Shown here: in pieces, positions 2,257 through 16,298 of the stretch | How the letters are laid out: every line of letters starts with the position of its first letter | How positions within the stretch are numbered: the first letter of the stretch is position 1 | DNA from: a virus | Direction: 5' to 3' (one strand) | IMG/VR virus record: IMGVR_UViG_3300025413_000084 | Location: 1 to 30,991 of that record | Length of the DNA: 30,991 nucleotides | Program-made: the position numbers and the translations under genes | The notes under the pieces: generated by a model | Database searches by the model: none | Told to the model about the DNA's origin: nothing | The model's input: only the letters and a program-made list of their open reading frames with translations

Positions 2257-2978
2257 TAGAAATGACCTTCACTGAATGGATCTTGAGCCGTAAAATCTAT
2301 GAAACCTGAAGATTCATTTGCCATGATATCATTTGTTCCTGTACCTTCAATATTATCTAGGTTATATTGTTCAACCTCGATATAATCATCATCTTCATTT
2401 GTAATAGGTTCATTCTGTTCTGTCATAATAGAATAATCAAGAATGTTAGTGCTATACTGAGTTTGGATACGATCAATTTCTGGAATACCAGTGCTGAATG
2501 TTTCGTCACTGTATTCGAATAATTCACAAGTCATTTCCCAAGTCTGTAATGAACCTAATTGATAGAACATTTCAAACTTGTTGACAAATTTAATCTGAAA
2601 ACATTTATTGTTCAATGGAAAATAAATTAAATCGCCTTCGCGTGGTCTAGTAATTGCTGTGTATGCACCAATTTCATTAGAGAATGTTCTTTGTGCAATA
2701 GAGAAAATAACCTGATCTCGAATTTCAAGACCAAACTTAGACATGAAATTACCATCGCCAGAAAATCCATCAACTGATTTGATATAAAATTCTACAAGAT
2801 AAGCATTGGTATACGATGATTGATCGTCAGCTGTGTAAACCTGATCGAGGTTATTAATATTACGAGGAATGTAAAACATATCCTCACCATAAATTTTGAT
2901 CGCTTCAATAATCAAATTTTCCAGCAAATCTTGTTCGCCCGAAGATTTATAGTTATTGAAATAAAAATTAGTTGACAT
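2256..2978 (-). CDS. 14: Neck protein, gp14-like
   Basis: 240 aa head-completion/neck protein that works with gp13 to join the portal vertex to the tail. Diagnostic segments are ENLIIEAIKIYGEDMFYIPR near the N-terminus, an SVDGFSGDGNFMSKFGLEI block that parallels T4 NSFEGYEGQKSFFSNFGMQ, EGDLIYFPLNN (T4 EGDLIYFPMDN) and FEMFYQLG (T4 YDPFYQLG). The tail is acidic and low-complexity. ATG overlaps the stop of the upstream homing endonuclease by one base (TGATG) and has only a weak AAG-type ribosome site, so it may depend on coupling to the inserted gene. Confidence 0.95.
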   Translation of the reverse strand: MSTNFYFNNYKSSGEQDLLENLIIEAIKIYGEDMFYIPRNINNLDQVYTADDQSSYTNAYLVEFYIKSVDGFSGDGNFMSKFGLEIRDQVIFSIAQRTFSNEIGAYTAITRPREGDLIYFPLNNKCFQIKFVNKFEMFYQLGSLQTWEMTCELFEYSDETFSTGIPEIDRIQTQYSTNILDYSIMTEQNEPITNEDDDYIEVEQYNLDNIEGTGTNDIMANESSGFIDFTAQDPFSEGHF

Positions 2979-3655
2979 CAGATTATATTCTTATGTTTAC
3001 ATTTGGCATTGTGGTAACGACCTATGGTTCCTGCATTGCCCTCATATTCACAATGCTGACATTTAATTTTCTTATTATTTAGTTCTTTGAAATGTGTTGT
3101 TTCTCTAATTTGGTTCTTGCGTTCTTCAGAAAGTTTTTTGCCTCTGTTAGCAGCTGCAGCCATTTCACGAGCTTTAAAATTATCTTTACCTACATTTTTA
3201 CCAATCATTGATTGGCGACGTTTTTCTCGAACTTCAATATCAGAACTTCTAGTGTCTCTTGTAGCTAATCCAGCGAGATATTTTTCTCTAACTGATGGGC
3301 GGTACATCGCTTCTTTAGTTTTTTGTGAAATTTTTTCTCTTATTGATAACGAAGAATTTATATCAGTTGTCCAATGACCCCATTTATGCTTACGTAAATT
3401 ATAATATTTTTGACCTAATTCTTCATTTTTAATAAAGGAAAGCCATTTATATTCCTCTTCGAACATCTGATCTCTGTTAGAAATATTCTCAATTAATATT
3501 TTTCTTGTGAAATCTTTAGGTCTACGCTTAAATGCTTTTCTCATCCTATTCGAAGAACAAATATATCCATCATTTTTAAATCCCCAATGACATCCAACAT
3601 AATACATTTTACGTTTTTTATCAAACCAAAGATAAACAAACCCATACTTTTCCAT
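2978..3655 (-). CDS. Free-standing GIY-YIG homing endonuclease (Seg-like)
   Basis: 225 aa from ATG at 3655. This start is preferred over an in-frame ATG 27 bases upstream because AAGGAG lies 8 nt before it and the GIY-YIG core begins at once. The core reads YGFVYL at residues 4-9 and YYVG at 18-21. Then come YICSSNR, basic helices, an EEEY segment (candidate catalytic Glu) and KYYNLRK (candidate conserved Asn). The middle carries NUMOD3-like DNA-binding repeats (REKISQKTKEAM, GKKLSEERKNQI). The C-terminus has a C2HC zinc-finger pattern: Cys199, Cys202, His215, Cys219. Such genes cut phage lacking them and spread into that locus by repair. It is inserted between genes 13 and 14, which are adjacent in T4, and seems to have its own promoter. 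Not essential for the virion by inference. Confidence 0.92.
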   Translation of the reverse strand: MEKYGFVYLWFDKKRKMYYVGCHWGFKNDGYICSSNRMRKAFKRRPKDFTRKILIENISNRDQMFEEEYKWLSFIKNEELGQKYYNLRKHKWGHWTTDINSSLSIREKISQKTKEAMYRPSVREKYLAGLATRDTRSSDIEVREKRRQSMIGKNVGKDNFKAREMAAAANRGKKLSEERKNQIRETTHFKELNNKKIKCQHCEYEGNAGTIGRYHNAKCKHKNII

Positions 3656-3685
3656 TTTAAAACTCCTTAAATTATAGAACATTAT

Positions 3686-6911: not shown

Positions 6912-6935
6912 GATCAAAGCTCCGCTGATGCTGTA
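6904..6935. repeat. 32-bp direct repeat, copy 1 (3' flank of fibre tip)
   Basis: Identical over 32 bp to 8134-8165. It covers the last codons of the 397-aa fibre (ASAEL), its stop, and the ribosome site and first codons of the 61-aa gene. Identity ends abruptly at base 6936 inside the receptor-binding domain. It marks one edge of the variable segment. Confidence 0.9.
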
Positions 6936-8107
6936 TATGTAACATTAGAAATATTGCCTTCTCCAGAACCAGAAGGAGTTTGTGCAAAAGTAATTTGTCT
7001 CGATGTAATAATTGCTGCTGATGGTGAACCTGATGCTGTACCTGCATTTGTATATGCTGGAATAGTAACAGTTGGCGCTGTTCTCATTGTTACAGGCAAA
7101 TATAAACTAGGATAACCAAAAGAAGCCACCGATTGAAAAAATCTAGCAAAAAATATTCCGCTTTCTTGAACATAATATCTCTGACACTGCACCAATTGGT
7201 CGCTGTAGATTTGCAGCTCGTAAGGATTGGCTTTGGTTCCGACTTCGAGCTGGACGCCTGTGATGTACAAGCTCTCATCCGCGCCCGCCGTTCCAGAAGC
7301 GTTCCAAGAAACTTGAAACCCTATTTGTGTAGCTGTAGAAGAAACTGCCCCCGTGTACGCATATAACACCCATCCCGTTGTTATCGATGTGCTAGTGCTT
7401 ACAATTGTTGATTCTCCGGTCCATGCTCCACCAGTCATGTTGCTGAAGCTTTGATCAGTTCCAGTACCGGTGTAAATATTTATACCTATTGGTTGGCTTA
7501 AATTTGCACCCGCTTTTGCATAGAAAGAAAGCGTAATACTTTTTCCTTGCAGGTCGACGCTGTTCAGCGTTTCACAAGCCTGTCCCAAAGCATAAGCAGA
7601 TGTAACCATGTTGCCGGAGGCGCGTTGTAATTTGGCAGCATATTGAAACCCAGTTAAACCAGATGCAACTTGCGAAAAAGTTCCCGCGCCGCCAGCCGCG
7701 CTGTAGTATGCGACAAAGCGATCGATGCTGGGGTATATGGAACTATTGTTTTGAAGAGCGCCAGAAGTACCACGTTGAGCAAATAGCATATTCCCATTTA
7801 TAAGATGGTTGCGTTTGAAGCTGGACGCCATTGAAAAGTTACCGGCAACTGTTGTATCACCAGTAATATTAACTGTATTACTAAATGTAGCAGCACCAGT
7901 ATGTGTTGTTGTATTACTAAATGTAGTGGCACCAGTAATATTAACTGTATTACTAAATGTAGTGGCACCAGTAATATTAACTGTATTACTAAATGTAGCA
8001 GCACCATTTTGTGTTAGTGTACCTGACACAGCAACTGATTGAACAGAAGTTGTACCTAAATTAGATGTTGGTTGACCAACAATGTTTGCTACTTGTAATG
8101 TTGACAT
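6914..8107 (-). CDS. Tail fibre with exchangeable receptor-binding C-terminus (paralogue 1)
   Basis: 397 aa. Attachment-type N-terminus MSTLQVANI, then four 12-aa repeats of the form TFSNTVNITGAT (about residues 33-80) that likely form a trimeric shaft, then a conserved hinge DTTVAGNFSMASSFKRN. The large C-terminal half contains NGNMLFAQRGTSG, SIDRFVAYY, NSVDLQGKSITLSFYAKAG, a beta-sandwich core, GVQLEVGTKANPYELQIYSD and QLVQCQRYY. This order of motifs is a known phage fibre-tip domain resembling carbohydrate-binding jelly rolls. AGGT precedes the start. The shaft and hinge DNA is identical to that of the 386-aa gene, but the tip diverges sharply. It ends SAEL, as does the paralogue. Likely role: binding a host surface glycan. 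Confidence 0.85.
   Translation of the reverse strand: MSTLQVANIVGQPTSNLGTTSVQSVAVSGTLTQNGAATFSNTVNITGATTFSNTVNITGATTFSNTTTHTGAATFSNTVNITGDTTVAGNFSMASSFKRNHLINGNMLFAQRGTSGALQNNSSIYPSIDRFVAYYSAAGGAGTFSQVASGLTGFQYAAKLQRASGNMVTSAYALGQACETLNSVDLQGKSITLSFYAKAGANLSQPIGINIYTGTGTDQSFSNMTGGAWTGESTIVSTSTSITTGWVLYAYTGAVSSTATQIGFQVSWNASGTAGADESLYITGVQLEVGTKANPYELQIYSDQLVQCQRYYVQESGIFFARFFQSVASFGYPSLYLPVTMRTAPTVTIPAYTNAGTASGSPSAAIITSRQITFAQTPSGSGEGNISNVTYTASAEL
7815..7901. repeat. 87-bp direct repeat, copy 1 (hinge before fibre tip)
   Basis: Identical to 8988-9074 at an offset of 1173 bp, compared base by base. It encodes the end of the repeat shaft and the hinge (DTTVAGNFSMASSFK) of the 397-aa fibre. Identity decays immediately on the tip side, where only scattered codons match. 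It forms the other edge of the variable tip segment. Confidence 0.92.
7858..8007. repeat. 36-bp tandem repeat array in fibre shaft (4 units)
   Basis: Units begin CACCAG at 7858, 7894, 7930 and 7966, with the next partial unit at 8002, giving exact 36-bp spacing. Each encodes 12 aa (ATTFSNTVNITG-type). Three units are almost identical; the second has a variant centre (TTTHTG). The near-identity at DNA level suggests recent slippage or recombination, which would change shaft length by 12-aa steps. Confidence 0.88.
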
Positions 8108-8141: not shown

Positions 8142-8165
8142 GATCAAAGCTCCGCTGATGCTGTA
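8134..8165. repeat. 32-bp direct repeat, copy 2 (3' flank of fibre tip)
   Basis: Identical to 6904-6935. It covers the last codons and stop of the 386-aa fibre and the ribosome site and start of the deleted small gene. Together with the 87-bp repeat at 8988-9074 it brackets the divergent tip. Confidence 0.9.
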
Positions 8166-9304
8166 AAGTTTCCATAGTAATAGGCACCGGCAGTGGACGC
8201 GCCAACTCCGTAAATTTGAAATTGACCTGAGTATGGATTTAATGCCAGCGAGTTGAGATTTGTAGAGGAAACTGAACTTGTAGCCATCGATGGGGCGGTT
8301 CGCATTTCAACAGCAAATGATTGTTGGTAAAACATTGCTGTTGAGTTCAAAATGTAACCGGCTTGACCAAATTTACCAGCTTGATAATACCTCTGACACT
8401 GCGCCAACTGATCGCTGTAAATCTGGCGCTCATAGGGCGTGGCAATTGACCCTGCCTCAAGTTGCACATTACCAATCGTCCACGTTCCGCTGGTCTGCGC
8501 GCCAACAGAAAGAACAATCTGCAAGCCAGTCGTAGCCGCAGAAGGAATGGCAATCTGCACATTGTAGCGCGTCACCGTCGAGCTGACGGTAAACGTTCCG
8601 GTGGCGATGGAAGTGACCGTAGGAGACGCCAAAGTGCCAAACGTGTTCGTCGTGTTGGCGTAGTAGGCAGTCCACGTCACGGTCGTCAAAAGACTGTTCG
8701 CCAGATCGACGGAGAAGGTTGCCGTCGTGCCAGCAAGATCAGCGCAGTTGAGAGCTTCGATACGCTGCGCGAAATTGATGGCAGTGACGGATGCAGCACC
8801 AGTGAACTGATAGCGATACTGATTTGCCGTCGCGCCAGCCACTTGCTGACCCGTCACGTTCGCGCCTGTGCAGTAAGCGTAGAAACGGTCAACCGTATAG
8901 GTCAAAGCCGCACCAGCGGTGATCGTTTGTGCCGCGCCAGCATTGCGCTGGTCCACCGCGCAATTTCCATTGATGATGCGGTTACGCTTGAAGCTGGACG
9001 CCATTGAAAAGTTACCGGCAACTGTTGTATCACCAGTAATATTAACTGTATTACTAAATGTAGCAGCACCAGTAATATTAACTGTATTACTAAATGTAGT
9101 GGCACCAGTAATATTAACTGTATTACTAAATGTTACTGCATTATTGGTAGCAATAACAATAGCATTTGCACCAGAATTGCCTTGGAGAAATACACCACCA
9201 CCCGAAGAGACAATAACTTTACCACCGACAGTATTGCCAGAAGTAACCGTTAGATCGGTTGTACCATTAGCTGTATTAATTGTTGTTACTGAAAGTGTAC
9301 TCAT
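8144..9304 (-). CDS. Tail fibre with exchangeable receptor-binding C-terminus (paralogue 2, GC-rich tip)
   Basis: 386 aa. N-terminus MSTLSVTTINTANGTTDLTV, then GGGVFLQGNSGANAIVIATN, three TFSNTVNITG repeats, and the same hinge DTTVAGNFSMASSFKRN as the 397-aa gene. The C-terminal half has the same tip family motifs (NGNCAVDQRNAG, TVDRFYAY, IEALNCADLAGTTATFSVDL, IGNVQLEAGSIATPYERQIY, QLAQCQRYY) but a quite different core, and ends TASAEL. Its core coding DNA is distinctly GC-rich (67 G/C in the 120 bases 8581-8700), unlike the shaft and unlike the rest of the window, which points to acquisition from another phage or host background. ATG overlaps the 227-aa gene's stop (TAATG). Probable host-glycan-binding tip. 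Confidence 0.85.
   Translation of the reverse strand: MSTLSVTTINTANGTTDLTVTSGNTVGGKVIVSSGGGVFLQGNSGANAIVIATNNAVTFSNTVNITGATTFSNTVNITGAATFSNTVNITGDTTVAGNFSMASSFKRNRIINGNCAVDQRNAGAAQTITAGAALTYTVDRFYAYCTGANVTGQQVAGATANQYRYQFTGAASVTAINFAQRIEALNCADLAGTTATFSVDLANSLLTTVTWTAYYANTTNTFGTLASPTVTSIATGTFTVSSTVTRYNVQIAIPSAATTGLQIVLSVGAQTSGTWTIGNVQLEAGSIATPYERQIYSDQLAQCQRYYQAGKFGQAGYILNSTAMFYQQSFAVEMRTAPSMATSSVSSTNLNSLALNPYSGQFQIYGVGASTAGAYYYGNFTASAEL
8988..9074. repeat. 87-bp direct repeat, copy 2 (hinge before fibre tip)
   Basis: Identical to 7815-7901. It lies in the 386-aa fibre gene at the shaft/tip boundary. High-GC sequence begins just on the tip side, so the repeat edge coincides with the compositional break. 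Confidence 0.92.
9031..9138. repeat. 36-bp tandem repeat array in fibre shaft (3 units)
   Basis: Units begin at 9031, 9067 and 9103 with the same 36-bp unit as 7858-8007; the next block, from about 9132, is degenerate (TGTTACTGCATTATTGG). It encodes three TFSNTVNITG-type 12-aa repeats in the 386-aa fibre. One unit fewer than the paralogue. Confidence 0.86.
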
Positions 9305-10368: not shown

Positions 10369-11088
10369 TTAGTATTCAATAATGATTGCACCAGTGCTTC
10401 CTGCACCACCCGAACGACCAGTTGCAGCAGAGCCAGCATAACCACCAGATCCTCCAGCGCCAAATCCAGTGCCAGCAACACCATTAGCACCAGTGATTGG
10501 TGTTGGTGTTAATCCGCCAATACCATAACCAAGTGGTGTACTAGCACCAATACCAACTACTGAAGTAGTTGCAGCTGCAATGCCACCAGTACCACCAGCC
10601 TGACCGTTAATGCCTAATGCATTGGCAGTTGTACCATTTGTAATTGCTGATTGCGTTCCACCAGTTCCACCTGCACCACCAGAAACAGAAGCACCAGCAG
10701 CAACAGTAGCATATGTTGTACCGTTATAAGTTATACTCGAAAGACCACCAGCACCACCTGCACCAGCAGAAGCACCAGCTGTTCCTGCAGCACCAACTGT
10801 ATATGTCATAGTATATACACCAGCAACAACTGTTAAGTAAATAACAATTACAGCTCCAGATCCACCACCACCACCAACTGAACCAATAGTTGCAGCAGAG
10901 CCAGCACCGCCACCACCACCACCAATAATAGTTACTTTAATTTTAGCTCCTGCAAATTGCAAAGCTGTTGGAAAAGTATATGTTGCTGCAGAACCAGTAA
11001 CAAATACAGTCATATTTGAATAACCAGCACCTGCACCGTCAACTAATAATGAACCATAAACTCTTGTTCCACCTATAAGTTTTGCCAT
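10369..11088 (-). CDS. Second glycine-rich adhesin-like protein
   Basis: 239 aa. It begins MAKLIGGTRVYGSLLVDGAG, then a beta segment and FAGAKIKVTIIGGGGGGAGS, an Ala/Gly-rich body with many GGxGG runs, and ends GSTGAIIIEY. The 'VTIIGGGGGG' entry and 'GAIIIEY' exit are the same plan as YLIVAGGGGGG and GIIIIRY in the 292-aa adhesin, but this body has more Ala and Thr and no Cys. This layout is typical of Gly-rich tips of phage fibres. It follows the lectin-like 969-aa gene, so it may decorate a different fibre from the 292-aa protein. AGGAAA precedes the start. Confidence 0.75.
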   Translation of the reverse strand: MAKLIGGTRVYGSLLVDGAGAGYSNMTVFVTGSAATYTFPTALQFAGAKIKVTIIGGGGGGAGSAATIGSVGGGGGSGAVIVIYLTVVAGVYTMTYTVGAAGTAGASAGAGGAGGLSSITYNGTTYATVAAGASVSGGAGGTGGTQSAITNGTTANALGINGQAGGTGGIAAATTSVVGIGASTPLGYGIGGLTPTPITGANGVAGTGFGAGGSGGYAGSAATGRSGGAGSTGAIIIEY

Positions 11089-11106: not shown

Positions 11107-14016
11107 TTATGATGTACCTGTTACTTCATCAAACTGATTAAATATTTGAGTAATACCTGTATTGGACAATTTCATCACCGTTGTATTTGCTGGCAATACA
11201 AAGTTTGGCGTAGCAAATGGAATAGGGCTAGTCTGCTGAGTTGTACTACTCGATGTCAGTGTATAACCATTAAGTGAATTGTCTTTCAATGTTGATGACT
11301 GTGATGTAAGTAATGAAACTTGTGAAGCATTAGCACTTTGACTTGTTGTAGTCAAAGGTGATGTTGATGGAGTAAATCCAGTTGTATATAATGCTGTTCC
11401 TTTAACAATACGAAGGTTAGAAATATACCCATTATATTTCAAAAATTGATCAGAAGCTCTTGCTCCAACATATAATGCCTGCGTTGAAGTATCATCAGCG
11501 GAAACAATGGTTACGCTTGAACTTGAATTTGCCAATGTTCCATTTAAAAACAATCTAGTAGTTGTACCATCATATGTTGTTGCTACGTGATACCAAGTAT
11601 TATTAGCAAGAGCTGATGTTTTTAAATTTCCATTATCTGTATAATACGTCATTGTATTATCAGTTTCTATACGAAAAGTATAACCAAATGTACTTGCTAA
11701 ATTTTTATTGACAAGGTCTTGCTGTGTTCCATTGACAAGCGTTGGATACATCCAATATTCAACAGTATAATTCGATCCAGCTAATACTAAAGATGTATTT
11801 GCTGGAACAGTATAATATGCTGAACCATTAAAGTAAGTACTGAAATAACCATCAGGAAATCCAATAATAGGAAATGGACTAACCGTAGAATTTGTTGGAG
11901 AACCAACTTTTGCAATTGGATTATTATATACACTGATATCAGTTAAATCTGTTTTAAGAGTTCTCAATAATAACGTTGTACTTGCTGTGTTAGTAATAGC
12001 AGAAATATTAGTTCCAGAACCTTGTGTTATTGTCAATAAGTTTGTTGGTGGCGTGAACGTACCAGTATAAACAGCAACACCACTTACAATACGAAGATTT
12101 GAAATATAACCAGGAAAATAACCGCCAACTACAAGACCATAATAACTTCCAATAGTGCTAGTTGTGGGTGTTACTGTATAGTTTATGGAGTCAGTGGCTG
12201 TTGCTACTGAAACACCATTTCTGTAAATCGTTCCTGTTGTTCCACTTCTAACGTAAGCAACATGAAACCATTGACCAGTTGGAAAATCTGTTGTTGATGC
12301 ATCATTTGCACGTATAGCACCACTGCTATACCAGCCAAGACGACCAGCACCACTCAAACCAAAACCAAATGCCCAAGATGTTGTATGTGTTGAATCTCTA
12401 GCATCGATAATATATTGCGATGCTTGTGTAGCAGTAAGATATATCCAAGCTTCAACAGTAAAATTGCCTGTACCAAATGCAACACCAGAGCCTGATGACC
12501 AAGTTAAATACTGAGATGTACCATTGAGCGAAATACTTCCAGTTAAATTAGGATTTAAAGACATTTCATCAAAATTATTAAAAGTTTGTAATACACCATT
12601 GCTGTATTGTTTACTAACCGTTAAACCAAGATTTGCTGCATATGATGGTAACAACTGAAGAGGTAAACAGTTGTTCGTATTTGTTAGCGTAAATGCATTT
12701 GGCGAATTATCAATAATAGTTGGTGATTGACCAGTAACTAAAGATGCACTACCAGGTGGAAGATTATAAAGTGGTGGTGTGAAATTTGATGTATAAATTG
12801 CTGAGTTATTAGAGATACGAATATTAGAAAGATAACCACTGAACTGTGCATTAACAGTGCCAACTGTATCATATCCAATATTTAATACAGCAGCTCCTGT
12901 TCCAGGTTGTGTAATAGTTACTGGTGTTGTCGTAACGCTTTTACCATTAAAATATATCGTAGCAGAGCCAGCATTTGAAACTACTGCAACATGATACCAA
13001 GTATTCAAAGCAATAGATGTATTACTAGAAACACCAGTAGAACCTGTAAGCGGTCGACTAGCAGAAATAGTTGAGTCTGGATTAAGATAAACGGTAAAAG
13101 AATTCGATGTACCATTAACTCCAATCATTATAAATCGACATTGGTTTGAAGCAGGAACTACAGCTGTTTGATATAACCAAGTTTCAATAGTCCAATTACC
13201 ACTAGAAAGAGTAAAAGCTCCGCTAGACGGAGCTGTCAATTTGCTACCATTAAAATATATACCATAATATGCATTTGGTAAAAATGGAGTTGATGCTATT
13301 GATAAAGCAGTACCGACGTTAGTGACTGTAAAAGCATTTGGACTTGAATCTAAAAATGCATCTTTAGTGTATGGCGTATTTAATAACAGAGATGTATTAG
13401 TAATAGGTGTTAACGGTTGCTTTGGTGGAGTAAATGCTGATGTATATACTGCTGTACCTTTTACAATACGGAAATTTGATATATAACCATTCAACGCATA
13501 AGTTGCTGATGGATTGTTACCATCGGCACCGATAATAGGTCTGTTAGCTCCAACAGTATAAGAAGTGGAGTCAGATACGCTCGAACCAACTTGCGATCCA
13601 TTAATATATAATCTTGAAGTGCCGCTTGCTCTAGCAACGGCAACATGATACCAAGTATTGATAGATAATGTTGGTCCAGTTATTGTAGTAGCACTGAGGG
13701 TAGTTGATATAACACCGGCTGTTGATGCTCCAATAACAATATAATTTGTTGTTGATGAAGTACCTGCGGGTCTTAAGTCGAATATCTGACTTGCGCCCGA
13801 TACAAAAGATGTAAAATTTACCCAAAATTCAATAGTAAAATCACCAGCGCCAAAAGTAAACGAAGAAGCCGCTGAGGTTGGAAGATTTAAATATTGAGTT
13901 GATGCTGCAGTGAATGAAATACTACCCATTGCATTAGGATTATTTGTTACTTCGTCGATGTAGCTGTAGGTTTGTAGATTACCAGTATTAGCTAATCTGC
14001 TAACTGTATTTGCCAT
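11107..14016 (-). CDS. Large adhesin with four LamG/ConA-like lectin domains
   Basis: 969 aa. Four concanavalin-A-like (LamG-type) domains at about residues 29-200, 250-415, 492-660 and 722-885. Each has an [FY][ET][IV]E.W strand (FTIEFW, WTIETW, FTVEAW, YTVEYW), a W[YF]HVA strand (TWYHVA three times, QWFHVA once), a glycine-rich NG turn, and GY[IL]SN[FIL]RI followed by A[VIL]YT..FTP. These domains bind sugars or protein ligands in many phages and bacteria. The domains come in two pairs; each pair is preceded by a Q-x-[FY]-x-x-[FI]-D-E linker (D21, D483), and a third copy of the linker (D963) ends the protein. The start overlaps the 760-aa gene's stop. Likely a receptor-recognition or virion-surface protein. 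Confidence 0.85.
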   Translation of the reverse strand: MANTVSRLANTGNLQTYSYIDEVTNNPNAMGSISFTAASTQYLNLPTSAASSFTFGAGDFTIEFWVNFTSFVSGASQIFDLRPAGTSSTTNYIVIGASTAGVISTTLSATTITGPTLSINTWYHVAVARASGTSRLYINGSQVGSSVSDSTSYTVGANRPIIGADGNNPSATYALNGYISNFRIVKGTAVYTSAFTPPKQPLTPITNTSLLLNTPYTKDAFLDSSPNAFTVTNVGTALSIASTPFLPNAYYGIYFNGSKLTAPSSGAFTLSSGNWTIETWLYQTAVVPASNQCRFIMIGVNGTSNSFTVYLNPDSTISASRPLTGSTGVSSNTSIALNTWYHVAVVSNAGSATIYFNGKSVTTTPVTITQPGTGAAVLNIGYDTVGTVNAQFSGYLSNIRISNNSAIYTSNFTPPLYNLPPGSASLVTGQSPTIIDNSPNAFTLTNTNNCLPLQLLPSYAANLGLTVSKQYSNGVLQTFNNFDEMSLNPNLTGSISLNGTSQYLTWSSGSGVAFGTGNFTVEAWIYLTATQASQYIIDARDSTHTTSWAFGFGLSGAGRLGWYSSGAIRANDASTTDFPTGQWFHVAYVRSGTTGTIYRNGVSVATATDSINYTVTPTTSTIGSYYGLVVGGYFPGYISNLRIVSGVAVYTGTFTPPTNLLTITQGSGTNISAITNTASTTLLLRTLKTDLTDISVYNNPIAKVGSPTNSTVSPFPIIGFPDGYFSTYFNGSAYYTVPANTSLVLAGSNYTVEYWMYPTLVNGTQQDLVNKNLASTFGYTFRIETDNTMTYYTDNGNLKTSALANNTWYHVATTYDGTTTRLFLNGTLANSSSSVTIVSADDTSTQALYVGARASDQFLKYNGYISNLRIVKGTALYTTGFTPSTSPLTTTSQSANASQVSLLTSQSSTLKDNSLNGYTLTSSSTTQQTSPIPFATPNFVLPANTTVMKLSNTGITQIFNQFDEVTGTS

Positions 14017-16298
14017 TATGAGAATACCGTGTCAAGACTTCCAGATATTGTATTTATGAACTGATATGCAACACCAGTGCTTGTACCTGTCGCGTTTGTA
14101 AAGGCAATATTAGATACAGCAATAGATGCACCATTACTAAATGAACTACCACCACCCGTTACTGTTGACCAATAAACACCACCAGTAGCATTTGATGTCA
14201 ATACTTGGTTAGCTGTACCATTCGAACCATTTGCTGTAATTACACTGGATACAACTATAGTATTGGAAAATGTGATGGTGTTTGTAAAAGTATATTGGCT
14301 TGCTGTATTAACGCTACCGCTACCACCAGTAACACTTGCCCAAATTGTTGCTGTACCATTTGATGTTAATACTTGGTTATTTGTTCCTATTCCACCATTG
14401 ATTGCGATTGCTGTAGAATTGATATTAACATTAACAGTGTTGTTACCGTGGTTTACAGAAGGAACAGTAATTGCACCAGTAAACAGAGCGCCGGAAAGTG
14501 CAGCATAGTTAGCAAGATTATTAGACAGCTGGAACGATGTAACATAAGAAGAAGAAACAACACCACCAAGATAAGCAGAATTATTAGCATTTAATGCATT
14601 GTTAGCTGTGCCATTTATTGTACTATTAAATATAATAGTGTTCGTAAATGTTTGGGTGTTCGACCAAGTATATTGAGCGTCAGCATTGGCAATATTAGTA
14701 ATTGTTTGCCAAATCGTTGCTGTGCCATTTGATGTTAATACTTGATTAGTTGTGCCAACGCTTCCATTAATAGCAATAGAAGTGGAGTTAATATTTACGT
14801 TTACACTATTATTACCATGATTAACAGAAGGAACAGTAATTGCGCCAGTAAATACTGCACCAGAAAGTGCAGCATAGTTCGCTAAATTATTTGTTAACTG
14901 GAATGCAGTAGTATAAGATGCAGCTGCTATACCACCAAGATAAGCAGAATTATTAGCAGTGCCAGAAAAAGTAGTTGAATTAATAGATGCATTAACAGTA
15001 GAGTTACCAACATAGATTGGATTCTTTGTGAATGTACCTGCATAACCAGTTTCAAGGTAAGTATTACCCGAACCCTGACCAATTACAAAACCTTCAAGAT
15101 TAGAAGCAGCCGCAATGATATCAACGGTATTGTTCGTGTAATAGAATTTGGTAGTTACACCAGTATTGCGACCCATTCTCCAATTAGCATCAGTAATACC
15201 ATTAAAATATATGGCGCTTGTATTACTATTCAAACCAAACAAACCACCATTGATAGATACGTTAGCATTGAACGTATGGTTATTTGTCCATGTAAAAGCT
15301 GCCGCTGTATTCGTGCCAGTAGCTGCAGCTATAGTTGACCAATAAGGAGGGCTAGCACCGTTCGAAGTGAGAACCTGCCCTGCGTTACCATTTGAGCTAC
15401 CAGCAACCAAAGTAGATGTTACTTCAAAAGGAACAACAGCTTTGAAACTAGAAGTTGAACTATTTGCAAATACTGTCCATATTGCTCTCTGACCATAAGT
15501 TGCGTTAGTCGAATACATAACGAAATTGTCATCATTTTGTTGAATAAATGATGAGTATGCAAAAGTATTAACTGTTTGGAAATTTAAACTTTTATTATTG
15601 TTTAGTATGAGATTATTGTTATGTGTTATAACACCTGATAATGTATAGCTTCCAGAAGTATTAACATAAGAAGAAGCAGCAACACCGCCAAGATTGTTGG
15701 CATTGTTAGCAGTAAGAATAGCAACGTTAGCAGCTAGTGTTGAATTGAGCTGATAAGAAGAAGCAGCAGTTCCACCAAGATAAGATGAATTATTAGAACT
15801 ACCAGAGAATGTTGTTCCATTCATGGTAACATATGCAGAATTGTTACCTATCTGTAAAACAGAAGAATTTGCAAAAAATAAGTTAGCTGCTGACGCATAT
15901 GTTGGATTGTTAACAACACCAAACCAAGTGTTACCGCCAGGACCATTATTTCCTGGCCAACCAAGCGTAATTGTTGGACCAAGATTTTGACCACCAATCA
16001 AAGCGTTTGCGCTAAGAGCAACGAAATTGGTTGTAGTGTTAGCAGCTGCAAAGATTGTAGAGTTGACAACAGAATTGACACTAGAATTACCAATGTATAT
16101 TGTATTGGTCACAGATTGATTCAATACATTAGAACCAACGTATATTAAGCTAGTACCATCTGAAGTATAGAGGATTTGATCCGGCATGTTAAGCGCAAAT
16201 TCACCAGCAGCAATATACTGTGTGTTAGATGAATTTGTTGTATTAGGAATTCGTCCAGCAGTGGACGTTCTCTTATGCTGGATAATATTATTAGCCAT
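14016..16298 (-). CDS. Long tail fibre protein with Mtd-like N-terminus and internal duplication
   Basis: 760 aa. The N-terminus (QHKRTSTAGRIPNTTN, AAGEFALNMPDQILYTSDG) is the 'K-R-x3-x-P ... GE-A-N..D..LY..D' pattern of the major-tropism-determinant N-terminal domain that attaches fibres to baseplates. The body is a long array of fibre repeats: YIGNSSVNSVVNSTIF, NSSYLGGTAASSY, NQVLTSNGTATIW, and TANNSAYLGGIAAASY. Two consecutive blocks repeat with a 369-bp period. The C-terminus is short (FINTISGSLDTVFS) without an obvious binding domain, so the following lectin or Gly-rich proteins may serve as tips. A strong AGAGGA site precedes ATG. Confidence 0.82.
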   Translation of the reverse strand: MANNIIQHKRTSTAGRIPNTTNSSNTQYIAAGEFALNMPDQILYTSDGTSLIYVGSNVLNQSVTNTIYIGNSSVNSVVNSTIFAAANTTTNFVALSANALIGGQNLGPTITLGWPGNNGPGGNTWFGVVNNPTYASAANLFFANSSVLQIGNNSAYVTMNGTTFSGSSNNSSYLGGTAASSYQLNSTLAANVAILTANNANNLGGVAASSYVNTSGSYTLSGVITHNNNLILNNNKSLNFQTVNTFAYSSFIQQNDDNFVMYSTNATYGQRAIWTVFANSSTSSFKAVVPFEVTSTLVAGSSNGNAGQVLTSNGASPPYWSTIAAATGTNTAAAFTWTNNHTFNANVSINGGLFGLNSNTSAIYFNGITDANWRMGRNTGVTTKFYYTNNTVDIIAAASNLEGFVIGQGSGNTYLETGYAGTFTKNPIYVGNSTVNASINSTTFSGTANNSAYLGGIAAASYTTAFQLTNNLANYAALSGAVFTGAITVPSVNHGNNSVNVNINSTSIAINGSVGTTNQVLTSNGTATIWQTITNIANADAQYTWSNTQTFTNTIIFNSTINGTANNALNANNSAYLGGVVSSSYVTSFQLSNNLANYAALSGALFTGAITVPSVNHGNNTVNVNINSTAIAINGGIGTNNQVLTSNGTATIWASVTGGSGSVNTASQYTFTNTITFSNTIVVSSVITANGSNGTANQVLTSNATGGVYWSTVTGGGSSFSNGASIAVSNIAFTNATGTSTGVAYQFINTISGSLDTVFS
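14338..14960. repeat. Tandem duplication, 369-bp period, inside the 760-aa fibre gene
   Basis: Segments 14338-14591 and 14707-14960 align without gaps at offset 369 (for example GATGTTAATACTTG at 14362 and 14731, and ACCACCAAGA at 14562 and 14931). Each copy encodes NQVLTSNGTATIW, NLANYAALSGA.FTGAITVP and NSAYLGG. Differences are mostly silent third-position changes, so the duplication is old and the protein sequence is under selection. It encodes a 123-aa shaft unit. Confidence 0.87.

Follow-up and report, generated by a model that had tools for sequence, protein, structure and literature searches.

The question raised by this locus is what the three similar linkers of one long phage protein are, and why the protein ends just after the third of them. 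The window is the whole of a linear IMG/VR virus record of 30,991 bases, and its genes are T4-like, with neck, sheath-stabiliser, terminase, baseplate and tail-fibre functions. The protein, here P0001, is encoded by an ORF of 969 amino acids on the minus strand (11107-14016). The linkers are called FDE motifs below, and the stretches between consecutive motifs are called gaps. The features of P0001 and its neighbours, all on the minus strand, are the following.

14016..16298, minus strand: fibre-like gene upstream of P0001, 760 aa, whose stop overlaps the P0001 start (TAATG)
14022..14066, minus strand: C-terminus of the fibre-like protein, YQFINTISGSLDTVF; this tail is conserved in fibre genes that precede three-motif genes (tail comparison)
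11107..14016, minus strand: three-motif protein P0001 with LamG pairs in both gaps (ORF, PF13385 and motif profiles)
13945..14007, minus strand: FDE motif 1, residues 4-24, TVSRLANTGNLQTYSYIDEVT (motif profile)
13378..13929, minus strand: LamG1, residues 30-213 (domain boundaries)
12733..13269, minus strand: LamG2, residues 250-428 (domain boundaries)
12559..12621, minus strand: FDE motif 2, residues 466-486, TVSKQYSNGVLQTFNNFDEMS (motif profile)
12001..12543, minus strand: LamG3, residues 492-672 (domain boundaries)
11320..11847, minus strand: LamG4, residues 724-899 (domain boundaries)
11179..11343, minus strand: spacer of the ordinary type that follows LamG4, residues 892-946; as with the other three, any linker comes after it (spacer profile, E 2.9e-6)
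11119..11181, minus strand: FDE motif 3, residues 946-966, TVMKLSNTGITQIFNQFDEVT, with the C-terminus three residues further on (motif profile)
10369..11088, minus strand: gene downstream of P0001, 239 aa, starting MAKLIGGTRVYG and with a Gly-rich C-terminal domain, PF21722 (domain and start match)

The preliminary description of this DNA had read P0001 as four LamG domains with three similar linkers, whose aspartates at 21, 483 and 963 are spaced by 462 and 480 residues. The first point is confirmed by PF13385 and the linker alignment, and the second follows directly from the positions of the FDE/IDE residues. PF13385 (Laminin_G_3) matches four stretches of P0001 with an E value of 1.4e-79 and 265.9 bits, against a gathering cut-off of 27.6, and a fold search leads to the LG domains of laminin, neurexin and pentraxin; the LamG domains presumably bind sugar. 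Ungapped BLOSUM62 scores between the linkers are 44, 55 and 53, while the highest-scoring window among 200 shuffled copies of P0001 did not exceed 36 for linker 2 and 33 for linker 3. The likeness among the three linkers exceeds chance.

A profile built from 320 inter-LamG spacers of relatives in other phages matches P0001 four times, once behind every LamG domain (residues 203-252, 423-449, 673-716 and 892-946; E 3e-14 to 2e-5). The linkers are found at the N-terminus before LamG1, after the second spacer and, after the fourth spacer, at the very end. That they are duplicated ordinary spacers was rejected, since the same profile scores them no higher than shuffled copies; as the last LamG also has its normal spacer, the linker is a separate element. 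AlphaFold2 predicts four confident LamG domains, with residues 1-25, 458-491 and 933-969 below pLDDT 50 and the linkers themselves at about 31-37, from alignments with almost no linker homologues. A second run with linker 2 and LamG3 only, again with almost no linker homologues in the alignment, gave the linker a pLDDT of 30-40. At values this low the models give no confident structure for any of the three linkers.

Scans based on proteins found the linker in the phage of P0001 and in the locus L083 only. The DNA pattern NTG-x7-FDEVT returned 16 stretches, two from the same phage, twelve from other phages carrying the motif and two (L108 and L114) judged by eye to be chance matches, in what we take to be DNA-ligase reading frames. 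Five of the twelve stretches from other phages hold, as open frames, whole three-motif proteins of 72-88 aa, and a further motif scan gave 27 loci. Stand-alone proteins of 71-80 aa which consist of the three motifs only are present in many uncultured phages. An apparent relative in a Bacteroidales genome (L102) was discarded: the match is due to chance and lies antisense to the frame of a longer gene, presumably an aldolase. From these sequence comparisons the linker is better read as the diagnostic motif of a family, P0001 being a member with LamG cargo.

The number of motifs was counted in the ORFs that lie next to the fibre-like genes, with profiles (HMM) of the three motif types and a pooled profile at a cut of 5 bits. 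From 75 collected ORFs two unrelated small ones (L150 and L226) were dropped, and L106 was kept despite its open 3' end. Exactly three motifs were detected in 61 of the 73 distinct ORFs, in detail in all 24 short and in 37 of the 49 long ones; after shuffling, these 73 sequences yielded no motif match. The training motifs came from the 24 short and about ten larger proteins, so that the figure for the larger proteins, still partly trained, is the fairer one. Among the twelve exceptions ten have two motifs, one has one and one has four, the extra motif lying inside a LamG domain. About eight of these still fit three by regular expression or by eye, and L160, L164, L168 and L207 could not be placed. 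A further FDE- or LDE-like site, found by regular expression or below the cut, is present in L107, L118, L172, L190, L194, L206 and L218.

The cargo of these proteins is variable. The LamG counts in the first and second gap include 0+0, 0+1, 1+0, 1+1, 2+1, 1+2, 2+2 (P0001) and 4+4. LamG domains occur in gap 1 in L146, in gap 2 in L111/L126, L121 and L124, and in both gaps in L110 (1+1) and L106 (4+4), the second motif of the latter, TVSKQYRDGIFKTTNNIDEVT, being close to that of P0001. Non-LamG inserts fill both gaps in L117, and cargo follows the motifs in L116 and in gp332 of phage S-SRM01 and precedes them in L127, L137 and L140. It had been suggested that the protein grows and shrinks by whole double-lectin units, and that counting units in relatives would reveal it. 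The LamG number does vary; the motif number is mostly three with 0, 1, 2 or 4 LamG domains per gap, which speaks against whole units. Nor does the C-terminus of P0001 represent the first piece of a further repeat, since many relatives also end on the third motif, with the C-terminus at most nine residues past it in 46 of the 61 three-motif ORFs. As larger relatives mostly keep three motifs, the C-terminal linker is the third of three standard ones.

The genes on both sides of the three-motif gene are conserved. In the loci listed, each three-motif ORF with a visible upstream neighbour is preceded by a fibre-like ORF ending in SLDTVF or a variant of it. The first 148 sources contain 2034 distinct ORFs with a length of 100 aa or more. 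Of these, 28 have the ending [SNTQ][LMIV]DxxF, and in every case the next gene is a three-motif gene; the HMM recognises it in 27, and in the S-SRM01 pair gp331-gp332 it was identified by eye. As these sources had mostly been gathered by motif, a scan with the fibre tail only was added, using a pattern derived from fibres adjoining motif genes. It returned at least 120 stretches, and 80 loci were analysed among the matches listed, of which 16 lie, by contig name, on contigs of the motif-selected set. In these matches listed the pattern is the C-terminus of an ORF in 80 of 80 loci, the next ORF starts within -10 to +70 bases in 78, and 59 of the 66 distinct next ORFs are motif-positive by HMM. 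The seven failures include L159, L186 and L188, which by eye resemble members, L164 and L184, which are doubtful, and the unrelated small ORFs of L150 and L226. Of the two remaining loci, where no ORF starts within this distance, L201 encodes a motif-positive protein slightly further on and L204 has no room for one. In L150 and L226 the SLDTVF fibre is followed by the small ORF (M.I.F.F.T.YG...) and then by a MADRYWVGG protein running off the contig, whose start is like that of the cargo-first members L161 and L221.

Downstream, where there was room for a gene, 51 of 55 genes start with MAKLxxGTR(I/V)YG. The four exceptions are L164, which reads MAKLQGGSRTYG by eye, the non-members L150 and L226, and L107, which differs. 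The stop of the fibre gene overlaps the start of the next ORF (gap -1) in 38 of 78 pairs, as does the TAATG in the window. P0001 thus combines motifs at residues 4-24, 466-486 and 946-966 with the fibre tail upstream and a MAKL-type gene downstream. In S-SRM01 the three-motif gene is flanked by two genes that carry a baseplate wedge subunit annotation; the gene downstream of it starts with MALLKTNTG and does not have the GTRIYG part. Fibre tail and motif 1 co-vary weakly (rho 0.17, reached by 11 of 500 permutations), to a degree that shared descent alone could produce. These loci show a family with a mostly fixed number of three motifs, variable cargo and a conserved gene cassette.

The reading that we prefer, with a probability of roughly 60%, is that P0001 is a tail-fibre accessory protein, whose motif triplet attaches to the upstream fibre at its C-terminus and whose LamG domains, or other cargo in its relatives, are displayed. 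The three FDE motifs of about 21 aa each would form one small docking module and bind the SLDTVF-type end of the fibre encoded upstream, by which the triplet protein would join the fibre. A docking module is suggested by the mostly fixed motif number, by triplets that carry no cargo and by the position of the triplets behind a single type of fibre C-terminus. The upstream fibre is presumably a trimer with perhaps one P0001 chain per fibre; if so, its threefold nature would be a simple reason for three motifs. LamG or other domains placed before, between or after the motifs would be optional cargo shown to the host surface, in P0001 two LamG domains from each gap. The idea already voiced in the preliminary description that the linker is a capping or docking element fits this evidence well, docking itself being the probable rather than the observed part. 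In a more specific form, which we put forward tentatively, each FDE motif would pair with one of three identical C-terminal tails in the upstream trimer, and the single chain would make a pseudo-threefold joint to the next (MAKL) fibre with loops that tolerate whole domains. Were this true, fibre symmetry would dictate the number three, and phages would alter their host range by exchanging the cargo while the socket stayed the same.

The alternative that survives best, although we regard it as rather doubtful, is that the triplet is a joint and not the decoration of a tip, connecting one fibre at its C-terminus with the N-terminal end of the following, MAKL-type, fibre. The model for it is gp35 of T4, a monomer at the knee between the trimeric gp34 and gp36/gp37 half-fibres, as far as described in the part of the source consulted (PMC3004832). 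Both are encoded among fibre genes, and gp35 is a single chain that meets trimers between fibre segments, as the triplet protein would; here the likeness is one of gene order. The order of fibre, triplet and MAKL gene in the 51 of 55 loci agrees with such a joint. In L121, L124 and L126 two fibre-triplet pairs follow each other, the MAKL-start gene itself being the second fibre, and this agrees with a joint as well. Against a joint, the MAKL product of the window is a short Gly-rich protein of 239 aa and not a long fibre, and the downstream gene of S-SRM01 has a different start. No sequence match to gp35 was found for P0001 or the short proteins in PHROGs, Pfam and PDB.

It is improbable that the triplet serves the upstream fibre as a chaperone in folding or as a clamp in assembly, and is kept or cleaved off once assembly is complete. 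The small size of the triplet, its constant neighbour and the often overlapping stop and start would suit this role, and fibre chaperones may adjoin the fibre gene, as does gp38 of T4, the chaperone of gp37, in the portion of PMC12892980 available to us. Against it, lectin, Gly-rich and other cargo is fused to the triplet, and from this fusion we argue that the triplet protein is a part of the virion which meets the host. According to the same portion of that source, gp38 of the T2/S16 type holds the tip of the gp37 trimer with its N-terminal part and meets the receptor with a variable part (PMC12892980). This is one of the closest likenesses to the accessory protein proposed here, with which the gene order at the P0001 fibre agrees and for which that fibre would have to be a trimer. 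The two differ in that gp38 has glycine-rich polyglycine-II loops and P0001 has LamG domains on a three-motif scaffold; a Pfam scan of P0001 down to E 1 listed 10 families, none of them gp38 or a phage adhesin, and P0001 has no poly-Gly stretch.

The ancestry of the LamG domains was followed in a tree of 91 domains, whose bootstrap had not converged, so that its support values are rough. The sister of LamG1 is a domain of L083 (100/97) and not LamG3, LamG2 forms a pair with an L042 domain (100/85), and LamG2 and LamG4 fall within one supported set of seven rows (97/80). The best bit-score pairs inside P0001 are LamG1-LamG3 and LamG2-LamG4. The linker DNA copies are 54-62% identical with identical runs of at most 9 bases, so that no trace of a recent unit duplication is left; such a duplication is ruled out by the tree and the DNA identity together. 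Nor was a change of copy number seen between samples: two further contigs of this phage encode exactly the same 969 residues. That LamG domains are generally paired in relatives was rejected as well, since lag 2 exceeds lag 1 in 29 of 61 arrays, a figure expected by chance. That the linkers are flexible spacers duplicated with lectin pairs, the array changing by linker-LamG-LamG units, is for these reasons very unlikely: it would agree with their unstructured appearance in AlphaFold2, with the bit-score pairs and with the shared set of LamG2 and LamG4, but LamG1 and LamG3 are not sisters, pairing is chance-like, the triplet occurs alone (71-80 aa) and with non-LamG cargo, and it is the LamG number that varies while the motif number is mostly fixed.

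The cargo of P0001 belongs to the LamG_3 (concanavalin-like) arrays of the fibre and baseplate proteins of cyanophages and jumbo phages, and its LamG domains have many cyanophage matches. LamG in phage fibres is known, and Laminin G3 is described in jumbo phages, in the part of PMC7824862 consulted. These arrays differ from the triplet in having no fixed unit number, with 1 to 14 LamG domains per ORF in 70 complete ORFs, and in the array proteins of L003-L079 the FDE motif was not found at a cut of 12 bits. The loci selected with P0001, the window and L002 excluded, contain 92 LamG ORFs whose 3' end is visible. Of these, 80 end at most two residues past the last LamG, seven have long tails and five finish on an inter-LamG spacer that may or may not carry a linker (L001, the twin of P0001, L015, L029 and two in L027). 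The BACON repeats of crAss-like phages are likewise tandem domains in tail proteins and evolve by domain duplication and transfer; the abstract of PMC6949934 describes no three-motif scaffold.

No Pfam or NCBIfam model matches the motif triplet, PHROGs give weak matches to very small unknown families only, none with a function, and a sequence search of PDB returned nothing better than E 0.7. By tblastn of the linkers, the short proteins, the fibre tail and the MAKL start against an isolate phage collection, the only credible member is S-SRM01, a freshwater Synechococcus phage, whose three-motif protein is annotated as hypothetical. A description of the triplet was not found in the published literature by text searches, which cannot query sequence motifs, and a search by terms for such a protein in the accessible part of PMC6957217, on the receptor-binding module of a long tail fibre, had no match. 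Judging from these comparisons, we regard P0001 as a probable tail-fibre accessory protein on what appears to be a new scaffold, given that the triplet has no Pfam or NCBIfam model, PDB relative or functional PHROG and one isolate member.

If the preferred reading of a fibre-docked accessory protein is right, a common, unnamed family of uncultured aquatic phages would serve as the standard socket by which host-binding cargo is attached to the tail fibre. Receptor-binding proteins could then be found in metagenomes by the short motif and the cassette and not by the fast-changing lectins, and it would become testable whether a three-in-one-chain motif caps a trimeric fibre, whose symmetry would fix the number three.

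Two further repeats are present in the fibre genes of the window. A direct repeat of 250 bases, 79% identical, lies at 14340-14589 and 14709-14958 inside the fibre gene upstream of P0001. Another of 171 bases, 91% identical (7790-7960 and 8963-9133), is common to two adjoining tail-fibre genes (6914-8107 and 8144-9304), which also hold shorter internal repeats, and is likely a site of exchange between them. A homing-endonuclease-like gene (phrog_314) is found at 2978-3682 between neck genes.
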